DNA of 41,453 nt from Clostridiaceae bacterium. Its GTDB lineage: Bacteria > Bacillota > Clostridia > DSM-8532. A program made the position numbers and the translations under genes. The notes beneath the pieces were generated by a model. The model ran no database searches. It was given only the letters and a program-made list of their open reading frames with translations, and was not told the DNA's origin. Shown piece by piece: positions 30,394 through 34,311 of the stretch (the first letter of the stretch is position 1; every line of letters begins with the position of its first letter). Location of the stretch: NCBI GenBank assembly GCA_012520615.1, contig JAAYNX010000145.1, positions 1-41,453 on the forward strand, in the 5' to 3' direction.

Positions 30394-31527
30394 ATGGCTA
30401 AGAATAAATGGTTTAGCTGGGGCAAGAAGAAGGCTACTGAAAAGGAAGAGGAGACACTTATTCAACCTGAAATAGAGAATGAATTTGAAGAAATTGATGA
30501 AGATTTGGTTGAAGATATCATAGAAGAAGCAGAAGATTTTATAGAAGATACAGCAGAAGATATTGAAGAAGAGGATATATATACCGAGGAAGAAACACCC
30601 GAAAATACTAAGGTTGGTTTTTTCGGCAGATTAAAGGACGGGCTTAAAAAAACCAGAGACTCGATAACTCATAAAATTGATCAAGTGCTTGTATCCTTTG
30701 GTAAAGTGGACGAGGAGCTTTTTGAGGAGCTTGAAGAGGTTTTAATTACATCCGATATGGGGATGAATACATCCCTTAAAGTAATTGAAGAGCTCAAGGA
30801 AAAGGTTAAGGCTGAGAAAATTACAGATGCAAAAGGTGTGCGCCAAGCGATTAAGGAAATAATTGCCGCAAAGCTTACTGATGAAAACACCGAATTGAAG
30901 CTTTATACAAAACCTTCGGTAATAGTAGTTATTGGAGTAAATGGTGTAGGAAAAACGACTTCCATAGGTAAGTTGGCACATTATCTTAAGAATCAGAACA
31001 AGAAAATTACTGTAGCCGCTGCAGATACCTTCAGGGCCGCCGCAATAGAGCAGTTAGAAATATGGACAAACAAAGCCGGCGTAGAACTAATAAAGCACAC
31101 CGAAGGCTCCGATCCTTCAGCGGTTATTTTTGATGCAATCCAGCATTGTAAATCAAAACGTAACGATATATTGATTTGTGATACCGCCGGAAGGCTTCAC
31201 ACCAAGAAAAACCTTATGGACGAATTGAAAAAGATTTTTCGGATTATTCAGCGCGAGCTACCCGGCGCCGATATAGAGACACTTCTGGTATTAGATGCAA
31301 CAACCGGCCAGAACGCAGTTTCTCAGGCAAAAACTTTTTCAGAGGTTTCCCAGCTTTCGGGGCTTATTCTTACTAAGCTGGATGGTACTGCAAAAGGCGG
31401 AATTGTAGTATCTATTAAGTCTGAATTAAATATACCGGTTAAATTTATCGGCGTGGGAGAGAAAATGTATGATCTTCAGCCTTTCAAGCCCACCGAATTT
31501 GTTGAGGCCCTATTTGGCACCCAATAA
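30394..31527 (+). CDS. ftsY: Signal recognition particle receptor FtsY
   Basis: This 377-residue SRP-receptor GTPase brings ribosomes making membrane proteins to the translocon. The N-terminal 75 residues are very acidic (long Glu/Asp stretches), followed by the helical N domain and the NG GTPase. Motifs: G1 GVNGVGKTTS (181-190), the DTFRAAA insertion, G3 DTAGRLHTKK (from 263), G4 TKLDGTAKGG (327-336), and the closing GVGEKMYDLQPF. AAAGGAAA lies before the ATG. It is downstream of smc and probably co-transcribed with it; I see no convincing terminator after it. Confidence 0.97.
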   Translation: MAKNKWFSWGKKKATEKEEETLIQPEIENEFEEIDEDLVEDIIEEAEDFIEDTAEDIEEEDIYTEEETPENTKVGFFGRLKDGLKKTRDSITHKIDQVLVSFGKVDEELFEELEEVLITSDMGMNTSLKVIEELKEKVKAEKITDAKGVRQAIKEIIAAKLTDENTELKLYTKPSVIVVIGVNGVGKTTSIGKLAHYLKNQNKKITVAAADTFRAAAIEQLEIWTNKAGVELIKHTEGSDPSAVIFDAIQHCKSKRNDILICDTAGRLHTKKNLMDELKKIFRIIQRELPGADIETLLVLDATTGQNAVSQAKTFSEVSQLSGLILTKLDGTAKGGIVVSIKSELNIPVKFIGVGEKMYDLQPFKPTEFVEALFGTQ

Positions 31528-31610
31528 ACTGATTCATGCTTAAAAGATTTATAACAGATGCGAAAATAAAAGGACATTGTTAAATAAATATCAAAACAAT
31601 TGTAAATGCC

Positions 31611-31639
31611 TTGACTTTTGATGTAGCGAAGAGTATCAT
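31611..31639 (+). promoter_or_regulatory. Sigma-A promoter of the glycine riboswitch-serA transcript
   Basis: TTGACT (31611-31616), a 17-nt spacer and TATCAT (31634-31639). It lies about 25 nt before the first aptamer. Confidence 0.7.
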
Positions 31640-31661
31640 GTCTTTATTAGTTTTATAATCG

Positions 31662-31825
31662 GATGAAGGCTTAGGGAGAGTGGCTGTTTTAGCACACCGA
31701 AGGAGTAAAGCTCTCAGGTAAAAAAGACCTTGGCCTGACGAATCTCTGGAGAGACCTTTTTGAAGGCGCCGAAGGGGCAAATCCGAACAAGGATGACACT
31801 CTCAGGCAAAAGGACAGAGCAGAAC
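31662..31825 (+). ncRNA. Tandem glycine riboswitch
   Basis: Two glycine aptamers follow each other. The first (about 31662-31730) has GGGAGAG, then CACCGAAGGAG, then GCTCTCAGGTAAAA and GACC. The second (about 31743-31822) has TCTCTGGAGAGACC, then GGCGCCGAAGGGGCAAATCC, then CACTCTCAGGCAAAAGGAC and AGAG. CCGAAGG and CTCTCAGG(T/C)AAAA are the hallmark conserved blocks. The linker is short, as usual for the cooperative tandem form. A terminator lies about 70 nt later, before serA. Glycine riboswitches usually turn on glycine cleavage or export; here the target is a serine-synthesis gene. Confidence 0.95.
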
Positions 31826-31895
31826 CCATGCAAAGGCTTGCAAAAAGACAAGTCAGCTAGTGCTATTGTTCGTTACATAAAAAGAGGTTAATCAG

Positions 31896-31926
31896 AGGTC
31901 AAACAATTATAGGGTTTGGCTTTTTT
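31896..31926 (+). terminator. Terminator in the riboswitch leader of serA
   Basis: AGGTCAAAC (31896-31904) pairs with GTTTGGCTT (31914-31922, two G-T pairs), within a run of six T. It lies between the aptamers and serA, so it is probably the switched element. AACCC (31823-31827), just after the second aptamer, can pair with GGGTT in its 3' arm and could act as an antiterminator. Confidence 0.65.
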
Positions 31927-31974
31927 CATTGTATAAGTTGGTTTTGTAGTATATATATTTCAGGAGGTTAAATT

Positions 31975-33582
31975 ATGGCAAAAATCATAGTAACAGACAA
32001 AATGGCACCTAACGGAATTGACTATTTGAAGAGCAAAGGATTTGAAGTAGATACACCTTTCGGCATATCTCCAGAGGAACTAGAAAAGATTATTGGTGAA
32101 TATGACGCAATAATCGTAAGAAGTGCCACAAAATTAAAGGGAGCAGTTCTTGATAAAGCTGTTAATCTAAAAGTTGCCGGTCGTGCCGGTAATGGTGTTG
32201 ACAATATTGATGTACAGGAATGTACAAGAAGAGGTATAACGGTAGTCAATACCCCCGATGGAAACACCATGGCAGCAGCAGAAATGAGCGTTGCCTTGGT
32301 TTATGCGGTCTTTAGAAATGTAGCGCAAGCTTACCATGCAGCAAAAAACAAGGACTTTAGAAGAAATAAATTTGTCGGTGAGGAGTTGGACGGTAAAACT
32401 GCAGGTATTATCGGCCTTGGCAAAATTGGCTCTGTTGTGGCAAAGAAACTTGTGGGCGCAGGAATGAAAGTTGTCGGGTATGACCCGTACATTTCGGATG
32501 AACGTGTTAACAGCTTAGGGATTACTCGAGTGGAAAATCTTGATGATCTATTTAAAGTTGCTGATTTAATTACTATACATATCCCGAAAACCCCTGAAAG
32601 CAAAAACCTTATAGGGGAAAGAGAACTGGCTTTATGCAAAAAGGGAGTTAGAATTGTCAACGTAGCCCGCGGCGGTATGATTGATGAAAAGGCCCTTTAT
32701 AACGCAATTGTGTCTGGCCATGTAGCTGGTGCTGCCCTCGACGTTCAGGAAGTTGAACCGAATTTTACAAAAGCGCCGGAAGAACAGGATTACTGGAACC
32801 CTCTATTGGATTTGGACCAGGTAGTATTTACTCCTCATCTTGGCGCATCTACAAAGGAAGCCAACCTGAATTGCTCATTAGGAGTTGCCAAGAATGTTGA
32901 AGCTGTATTAAACGGAGAATTGGTAGCGGCTGTAAATATGCCTCCTATTGCAGGAGATGTAGAAAAGCTTAAACCTTATACAAACATAGGCGAAAAATTA
33001 GGTGCAATCTACTACCAGGCAGAACAAGAAAGAGTGCAGAAAATAGAGATAATGTACAGCGGCGATTTAGTCGATAAGCCCACAAAGCCTATTACTCTTG
33101 CTATCATTAAAGGATTTTTATCAGTTGTTAGCGAGGATGAAGTCAATTATGTAAACGCACAGCTTAAACTTTCAGAAATGGGCGTTGAGCTTATTGAGAG
33201 CAAATCGAGCCAGCTTGAAAAATATACAAATCTTATTACTGTTAAGTTCTATAGGAAGACTAATGCAATTTCTGTATCGGGTACAGTATTTGCAAAGGAT
33301 ACTATTCGCATCGTTGATTTCTTCGGATATACTTTGGATTTTGAGCCTACAAAGCATGTTTTGGCTCTGCAAAACATGGATGTTCCGGGTATTATCGGTA
33401 AGGTTGGAACCCTTTTAGGCCAGAACAATGTTAATATTGCGGCAATGCAATGGAGCCGCCGTGACTCAAATTCTAAAAAGGCTGTATCCTTTGTAAGCGT
33501 TGACAATGATGTATCTGCAGAAATATTAGAAAAGCTGCGCAATATGGAAGGAATACTAAAAGTATCAAAGCTGAATTTCTAG
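31975..33582 (+). CDS. serA: D-3-phosphoglycerate dehydrogenase, long form
   Basis: This 535-residue enzyme makes 3-phosphohydroxypyruvate, the first step of serine synthesis. The NAD site is GLGKIGSVVAKKL. The catalytic arginine is in VNVARGGMIDE, and the acid-base histidine in FTPHLGASTKEA. The C-terminal third holds the intervening allosteric-substrate-binding domain (about 320-450) and an ACT domain (about 460-535, HVLALQNMDVPGIIGKVGTL), the usual serine-sensing part. AGGAGG lies before the ATG. It follows a tandem glycine riboswitch and is 28 nt before a LUD-domain gene. No serC or serB is nearby. Confidence 0.95.
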   Translation: MAKIIVTDKMAPNGIDYLKSKGFEVDTPFGISPEELEKIIGEYDAIIVRSATKLKGAVLDKAVNLKVAGRAGNGVDNIDVQECTRRGITVVNTPDGNTMAAAEMSVALVYAVFRNVAQAYHAAKNKDFRRNKFVGEELDGKTAGIIGLGKIGSVVAKKLVGAGMKVVGYDPYISDERVNSLGITRVENLDDLFKVADLITIHIPKTPESKNLIGERELALCKKGVRIVNVARGGMIDEKALYNAIVSGHVAGAALDVQEVEPNFTKAPEEQDYWNPLLDLDQVVFTPHLGASTKEANLNCSLGVAKNVEAVLNGELVAAVNMPPIAGDVEKLKPYTNIGEKLGAIYYQAEQERVQKIEIMYSGDLVDKPTKPITLAIIKGFLSVVSEDEVNYVNAQLKLSEMGVELIESKSSQLEKYTNLITVKFYRKTNAISVSGTVFAKDTIRIVDFFGYTLDFEPTKHVLALQNMDVPGIIGKVGTLLGQNNVNIAAMQWSRRDSNSKKAVSFVSVDNDVSAEILEKLRNMEGILKVSKLNF

Positions 33583-33610
33583 GCTCATAAAATGTTTTGG
33601 AGGGATAGCC

Positions 33611-34252
33611 ATGGATAAGCATTTAAAATCAATTCTGAACAAACAAGTAGAAAGAACCATGGATAATCTTGTAAGGAACAATATGACTGCATTATATGTA
33701 GAAACCAAAGACGAGGTTATTGGCAAGGTATCCGAATTTATTAATGAAGGCGATTTAGTAGCTGTCGGCGGTTCTGTGACATTGTTTGAAACTGGAGTCA
33801 TTGATCATTTAAGGTCAGGACGTTACAGCTTTTTAGACAGGTATATGGAAGACTTGTCCAGGACTCAATTAGAGGAGATATACAGAAAATCTTTCTTCGC
33901 CGATACATATTTGACAAGTACCAATGCGATTACCGAAGATGGGGAACTCTACAATGTTGATGGCAATGGAAATCGAGTAGCTGCCATGATTTACGGCCCT
34001 AAAAGTGTTATTGTGGTAGCTGGCGTAAACAAGATTGTCAAGAATATTGATGAGGCAATAGAAAGGGTCAGACGTATTGCTGCACCTGCCAATTCAACTA
34101 GACTCGAAAGAGATACCCCCTGCGTAAAAACGGGATATTGTGTAGATTGCAAAAAAGAAGACCGTATCTGCTGCAGTTATACAATATTTGGGCAACAGAG
34201 ACAAAAAGATCGAATTAAGGTTATTTTGGTAGGCGAAAGTCTAGGATACTAG
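33611..34252 (+). CDS. LUD-domain protein (lactate-utilisation-like)
   Basis: This 213-residue cytoplasmic protein belongs to the LUD family (PF02589, like LutC). Family parts visible are VAVGGSVTLFETGVIDHL, FFADTYLTSTNAITEDGELY, VAAMIYGPKSVIVVAGVNKI and RRIAAPANSTRLE. The C-terminus has a cysteine group, PCVKTGYCVDCKKEDRICC, that could bind a metal or cluster. True lactate utilisation needs LutA and LutB, which are absent. Single-gene LUD proteins of this type are common in Clostridia with no proven function. GGAGGG precedes the ATG, 28 nt after serA, so both share the glycine riboswitch. A terminator follows. Confidence 0.85.
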   Translation: MDKHLKSILNKQVERTMDNLVRNNMTALYVETKDEVIGKVSEFINEGDLVAVGGSVTLFETGVIDHLRSGRYSFLDRYMEDLSRTQLEEIYRKSFFADTYLTSTNAITEDGELYNVDGNGNRVAAMIYGPKSVIVVAGVNKIVKNIDEAIERVRRIAAPANSTRLERDTPCVKTGYCVDCKKEDRICCSYTIFGQQRQKDRIKVILVGESLGY

Positions 34253-34277: not shown

Positions 34278-34311
34278 AACAGTGGGGAAAACTCCCCGCT
34301 GTTTTGTTTTT
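34278..34311 (+). terminator. Terminator of the serA-LUD operon
   Basis: AACAGTGGGGA (34278-34288) pairs with TCCCCGCTGTT (34293-34303, one G-T pair) around AAAC, followed by TTGTTTTTG. Confidence 0.92.

Follow-up and report, generated by a model that had tools for sequence, protein, structure and literature searches.

In this study, we analysed a stretch of 41,453 nucleotides from a Clostridiaceae bacterium (contig JAAYNX010000145.1 of assembly GCA_012520615.1, hereafter the window), in which a tandem glycine riboswitch lies directly before serA, the gene of D-3-phosphoglycerate dehydrogenase. Folding models and comparisons of related leaders indicate that this riboswitch is probably a transcriptional OFF switch for serA and, where it is present, for the LUD-domain gene that follows. 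At low glycine, the 5' strand of P1 in aptamer 2 would pair with TCAGAGGT, a mimic of the P1 3' strand placed right before an intrinsic terminator, and this long-range antiterminator would occupy bases at the foot of the terminator, so that RNA polymerase reads into serA. With glycine bound, P1 of aptamer 2 would be held closed, the mimic freed, the terminator closed and serA shut down. SerA catalyses the reaction that opens the route from 3-phosphoglycerate to serine, which GlyA then converts to glycine, so that OFF control would amount to end-product feedback on serine and glycine synthesis. Serine may inhibit SerA via its ACT domain, and the glycine control would add to whatever that domain (PF01842) does here.

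Structure of the serA leader

The riboswitch leader of the window is placed between ftsY and serA, and all of its parts are on the forward strand. Aptamer 1, with its leader and linker, covers positions 31659-31740 (RF00504, 49.2 bits at 31663-31740; the RF03166 alignment begins at 31659) and aptamer 2 covers 31736-31827 (RF00504, 63.2 bits), both exceeding the RF00504 cut-off of 32 bits and joined by a short linker, an arrangement that is usual, though not universal, for this family. This tandem is the only RF00504 match at E<=0.001 in the window genome (a 256-contig assembly, 98% complete). The gene downstream is related to glycine and serine, as expected of the riboswitch class: serA (31975-33582, 535 amino acids), which matches TIGR01327 at 597 bits against a cut-off of 454 and carries the domains PF02826, PF19304 and PF01842. 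An earlier note on this DNA, made from the letters alone, had named a tandem glycine riboswitch before serA together with a promoter, a terminator and a LUD gene, and all of these were recovered where it had placed them. Two other assignments of the tandem were tried and rejected. Membership of the glycine-GGAnGA family failed, as the tandem taken as one element scored 86.3 bits with RF03166, under the cut-off of 110, and a T-box hybrid or glycine/T-box(Ser) logic gate was discarded because a search of 31500-32000 at E<=1 returned only the glycine element.

According to the RF00504 alignment, P1 of aptamer 2 consists of a 5' strand CTCTG (31744-31748), common to P1 and the antiterminator, and a 3' strand CAGAG (31815-31819) that is invariant across 33 aligned leaders. 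The mimic TCAGAGGT occupies 31892-31899 and forms eight pairs with 31742-31749. It runs into the intrinsic terminator (31898-31926), whose arms GTCAAAC (31898-31904) and GTTTGGC (31914-31920) form a stem of 7 base pairs followed by TTTTTT, and whose loop of 9 nucleotides explains why a pattern scan limited to loops of up to 8 nucleotides missed it. The terminator is kept in the 33 leaders, with 98.7% of its pair cells being standard, compared with 11.7-50.7% when the strands were slid. A ribosome binding site AGGAGG for serA was read from the sequence at 31962-31967.

The leader sets behind these counts were restricted as follows. Leaders L076 (contig edge), L046 (serA at a contig edge), L047 and L058 (leader partly missing) were dropped beforehand, L059 was excluded by hand as an archaeal match of 39% identity, and 25 leaders identical to another were merged, leaving 29 distinct leaders. 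L108 was scored for layout and is absent from the alignment of 33. The leader filter requires CAGGCAAAAGGAC, so that the C in aptamer 2 partly follows from selection; no leader was apparently lost for it.

Conservation of the P1 mimic and the antiterminator

Just before the terminator, the distinct leaders carry CAGAGG or a variant of it, except for five of one genus. The CAGAG of this mimic is a copy of the P1 3' strand and a complement of the 5' strand CTCTG, and in L007, L010 and L006, where the stretch reads CTCCGGAG, complementarity to CTCTGGAG is kept. The best contiguous antiterminator helix has 6-12 pairs in 24 leaders. In the window the duplex reaches -9.2 kcal/mol, which is matched by 1.0% of 500 shuffles, and in 23 of the 29 leaders the strength of the duplex is reached by at most 5% of shuffles. 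When partners were swapped between species, the mean weakened from -11.7 kcal/mol for own duplexes to -10.9 kcal/mol, and 0 of 5000 permutations reached the observed value, in a test that leaves shared ancestry in. In one fixed register, 84.8% of the cells in the antiterminator columns are paired, compared with 28.8-49.2% when slid. The antiterminator helix is thus both conserved and specific, short of proof by covariation.

The conserved alternative partner of the terminator foot is the 5' strand of aptamer 2 P1, pairing with 31892-31899. The earlier note had proposed a different antiterminator, AACCC (31823-31827) with GGGTT; both strings exist as it described, yet they occur together in the window only, AACCC being present in 3 and GGGTT in 3 of the 33 leaders, and this pairing was dropped. 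A side observation concerns the five leaders that lack the mimic (L064, L066, L067, L071 and L078, of the genus that includes Thermoclostridium caenicola): they keep the aptamers and the terminator, a CTGCAGGTC-like sequence takes the place of the mimic, and the terminator is weak in L064 and L066.

Folding models of the switch direction

For a transcript ending before the 3' arm of the terminator, the antiterminator fold beats the P1 fold in 24 of the 29 leaders, and in the window it is favoured by 9.5 kcal/mol. The combination to be expected of an OFF switch, namely an antiterminator that shares a P1 strand and is favoured without ligand, was found in 24/29 leaders including that of the window, and was absent from the five of one genus. 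Coupling between aptamer 2 P1 and the terminator was computed by a thermodynamic cycle with an energy penalty on pairs; in 25 of the 29 leaders P1 tips the balance towards the terminator by more than 1 kcal/mol (coupling below -1), and in no leader does it disfavour the terminator to that extent. The earlier note had regarded glycine control of serine synthesis as sensible and an off-switch as feedback, and this judgement is sound.

Aptamer scores and the gcvT leaders

Of the 27 serA leaders scored for both aptamers, 24 give aptamer 2 the higher score, the exceptions being G005, G024 and G030. This table leaves out G019 (contig edge), G031 (aptamer 2 only) and G022 (aptamer 1 only, truncated leader), and counts G018 despite its riboswitch and serA being on different contigs. 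Before gcvT, aptamer 1 scores higher in 4/4 leaders with both scores and is the sole one reported in five; the remaining one of the ten, that of G019, reports only aptamer 2 (33.3 bits) and stands outside the gcvT table. A passage of PMC6944388 connects aptamer-1 conservation with glycine cleavage and aptamer-2 conservation with transporters, the former context being associated with ON switches and the latter with OFF switches; our score pattern agrees with a putative OFF switch before serA and an ON switch before gcvT, as published for such contexts. Among the gcvT leaders, the C position of CAGGC is T in aptamer 2 of all five from the window's genus, whose aptamer 1 has C in four and A in L086; in those from other genera this position is mostly T in both aptamers.

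The layout of the gcvT leaders is also opposite. In 9 of 10 family gcvT leaders, the 5' arm of the terminator holds 3-5 nucleotides of the P1 3' strand, which is the layout of an ON switch, and in the tenth (L086) no hairpin passed the filter, though the same layout was seen by eye. A gcvT gene was found in 27 of the 32 family genomes, and an RF00504 match precedes it in 10 of the 27, with that of G003, at 31.3 bits, falling short of the cut-off. The remaining 17 gcvT upstream regions, the window genome included, gave no Rfam glycine match at E<=1; for G016 only about 65 bases lie upstream before the contig ends. Aptamer or terminator pieces were recognized by eye in five of these 17 (G005, G017, G028, G029 and G031), and gcvT switches are counted as absent or reduced in 17/27 family genomes. 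The pieces (L092, L099, L103, L104 and L106) look like riboswitch remnants with a terminator or an aptamer part left, and they suggest that gcvT switches have decayed repeatedly in the family. As a separate observation, a cyclic di-AMP riboswitch (RF00379) lies about 1.2-1.3 kilobases upstream of gcvT in the window genome and in G007 (L090:2420-2501, minus strand, and L095:1-67, plus strand).

Four family genomes (G001, G008, G026 and G027) have a riboswitch before a symporter gene, identified as PF01235 in the three tested (L005, L009 and L080) and by resemblance in the fourth. The earlier note had given gcv genes and transporters as the usual targets, which is sound, and had set the present switch apart from glycine cleavage and export; this is true of the window genome, whose gcvT (contig 67) has no riboswitch match, and the part on export calls for caution, as relatives have glycine riboswitches ahead of PF01235 sodium:alanine symporter genes. 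Couplings for alsT leaders (1.6, -0.7 and -3.5, with one leader unscored and anchors misassigned or missed) gave no clear direction and were not used.

Distribution of the serA riboswitch

RF00504 matches were detected in 13 of 14 genomes of the window's genus and in 30 of 32 genomes of its family, and SerA was found in 31 of these 32. The earlier note had proposed a survey of targets in related genomes, and in this survey 28 of the 31 family genomes with SerA, from six of seven genera, have the riboswitch immediately ahead of serA, as judged by inspection of downstream genes and leaders; the P1 mimic is present in 23 of the 28. The count includes G019, whose contig starts inside aptamer 1, and G031, for which RF00504 reports aptamer 2 only. 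The three exceptions are G018, with riboswitch and serA at the ends of different contigs, G007 (L058), in which a deletion apparently removes the leader from within aptamer 1 almost to the ribosome site, and G022 (L047), in which aptamer 2 is cut short. In the latter two, the terminator part seems to have been lost by deletions inside aptamer 1 and aptamer 2, respectively. Thermoclostridium caenicola (L043) is the closest species with a name in this set of loci.

Outside the family, 79 riboswitch-bearing genomes (78 from a class sample of 147, plus G032) were searched for SerA at E<=1e-40, and places were paired by eye on contig coordinates, so that diverged serA operons could escape; a serA-linked riboswitch was found in six of these genomes, from four families. 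In G032 and G043 the riboswitch lies before serA, and in G165, G147, G081 and G053 it lies about 1.4 kilobases before serA with a class-V aminotransferase gene between (PF00266, 4/4). The same platform occurs in three of the four families, and the OFF layout in four of the five leaders tested (L109, L110, L111 and L112), plus L056, which is one of the 29. In G043 and G165 a single aptamer is recognised, and its position beside the platform corresponds to aptamer 2; PMC6944388 compares type-2 singlets with aptamer 2, in agreement with these two cases. The elements themselves (L108:204-290 and L112:250-334) are serA-linked single-aptamer riboswitches of two other families, standing beside the platform like the published type-2 singlets. 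A search of the window genome placed serC (TIGR01364) on contig 42, unlinked to serA, and the aminotransferase of L109 used as query gave no match there at E 1e-10. In G138 (L114), a short serA-like gene and a further gene are followed by a riboswitch that precedes a PF01235 gene for a sodium:alanine symporter; here a glycine switch neighbours serA without preceding it.

Neighbouring features of the window

The promoter TTGACT-17-TATCAT (31611-31639) matches the consensus in 10 of 12 positions by pattern scan. The leader region holds 11 promoter-like sites against 8.8 in shuffles, so the scan alone is no evidence for a promoter; in 30 of 34 related leaders the best site within 120 bases searched scores at least 10/12 (no shuffle control), and one of the misses, L088, begins at a contig edge. 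Twenty-eight nucleotides after serA lies the gene of a LUD-domain protein of 213 amino acids (33611-34252; PF02589, 194 bits), followed by a terminator at 34278-34303 (pattern scan), all on the forward strand. The earlier note took serA and the LUD gene together as the targets; both are present in the window, and a LUD gene follows serA in only 13 of 30 loci (some of which end soon after serA), which leaves serA as the constant target. Near its C terminus the protein carries Cys171, Cys177, Cys180 and Cys187, invariant in 12 aligned proteins. A PDB sequence search for a relative of solved structure gave none beyond a chance match (E 0.52), and the structure prediction was unusable, with a mean pLDDT (predicted local distance difference test) of 46.

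Discussion

Our computations establish the parts of the leader and their conservation, show that P1 and the antiterminator compete for one strand, and give the sign of the predicted coupling as well as a gcvT layout that is the opposite. What we infer is that glycine binds, that termination takes place in cells, and what purpose the switch serves physiologically. Several observations weigh against an OFF switch of the proposed kind. The exact CAGAGGTC is found in 15 of the 33 aligned leaders, the others having variants, and the mimic is missing from the five leaders of one genus and from L108. No antiterminator pair in the fixed register is changed on both sides, there is no strict covariation, and letter shuffles are uninformative (500/500 reach the observed value) because the shuffled score is identical at each of the eight pairs. 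Judged by the longest contiguous helix, the antiterminator overlaps the terminator by 2-3 nucleotides in 19 of the 29 leaders (2 in the window), by 1 in two and by 0 in eight. The modelled coupling is weak in the window (-1.6 kcal/mol), and three of the five leaders without a mimic still couple negatively, being among the 25 below -1, so that the mimic by itself does not account for the coupling. At full-length equilibrium, the terminator fold beats the full antiterminator in 18 of the 29 leaders, the window included (-1.9 kcal/mol), and the switch would therefore have to act kinetically, during transcription. The folding models contain neither tertiary structure nor ligand.

Two other explanations stand about level, and we regard both as quite unlikely. 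In one, the riboswitch would be an ON switch, with glycine preventing termination and raising serA, for example drawing 3-phosphoglycerate into one-carbon metabolism. Glycine riboswitches before gcv genes are described as ON in a passage of PMC11477304, and the family gcvT leaders have that layout; the serA terminator, however, lacks the P1 3' strand and starts 54-165 nucleotides downstream of the aptamer-2 anchor, no coupling rises above +1 (0/29), and the serA aptamer-score pattern is the opposite of that of gcvT. In the other, the platform would no longer switch, the aptamers being kept while termination is constitutive or leaky. The weak coupling of the window, the equilibrium preference for the terminator and the apparent deletions in L058 and L047 are what such a loss could look like, but the switch stands before serA in 28/31 family genomes, mostly with its mimic, while of the 27 genomes of the same family that have gcvT, 17 show no switch or a reduced one before that gene. 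That the aptamers sense a ligand other than glycine, as an RF03166 variant or an altered-pocket relative, is least probable of all, since the RF03166 match of 86.3 bits and the T for the consensus C of CAGGC in aptamer 1 of 32/32 serA leaders examined are set against a missed gathering score of 110, RF00504 scores above cut-off for both aptamers, a consensus core retained in aptamer 2, and the same T in aptamer 2 of all five gcvT leaders of the window's genus.

With reference to known systems, glycine control of serC and serA is already in print, and it is the family-wide persistence of the serA switch amid the decay of gcvT switches that seems new. PMC9481103 describes, in a passage, a glycine riboswitch with T-box(Ser) before serC, serA and serS, predicted to be OFF; tandem glycine aptamers before serine-synthesis genes and the predicted direction are common to both systems, whereas the serA leader here has no T-box in 31500-32000 and its proposed OFF platform is detailed and traced across families. 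According to passages of PMC3766115, the regulon of the glycine riboswitch in one Clostridium species includes serC and serA, and passages of PMC2211319 place serC under a glycine riboswitch in metagenomes. The regulated pathway is the same; those passages give neither direction nor mechanism, and in this study serA itself is concerned, in most genomes of a family. The gcvT ON riboswitch (passages of PMC11477304 and PMC2258182) shares the aptamer class and transcription attenuation; whereas the gcvT terminator of the family takes up the P1 3' strand in its 5' arm, the serA terminator lacks it, and the extra antiterminator would reverse the logic. The glycine riboswitches of AGCS symporters in Streptococcus pyogenes and Vibrio cholerae are OFF, as cited in a part of PMC11477304, and resemble the serA switch in their OFF direction and in that, for transporter contexts, aptamer 2 is the one conserved (PMC6944388); the symporter switch controls uptake, and the serA switch would control synthesis. 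No paper on the serA-leader platform or a family-wide serA switch came up in searches of an open-access library, which leaves most subscription journals outside.

The present data point to a use of the glycine riboswitch in anabolism that runs through a family instead of occurring sporadically, and supply the question of direction with a testable mechanism. They bear on a statement in a passage of PMC11477304, made on C. difficile, according to which the production of essential metabolites is not under glycine riboswitch control, and would bring in serA as a third gene context for the idea, put forward in a passage of PMC6944388, that the regulated function decides which aptamer is relied upon. 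If true, the deletions in G007 and G022, both metagenome assemblies, would leave serA free of this control, and the same-genome pairs of a gcvT ON and a serA OFF switch would be natural matched pairs showing one aptamer class wired to opposite outcomes. On balance, and with somewhat less confidence than for the OFF direction itself, we consider it fairly probable that the lasting job of the glycine riboswitch in this clade is end-product repression of serine and glycine synthesis, exerted at serA by means of a P1-mimic antiterminator, the gcvT ON switches being lost while several genomes keep both switches with opposite logic.

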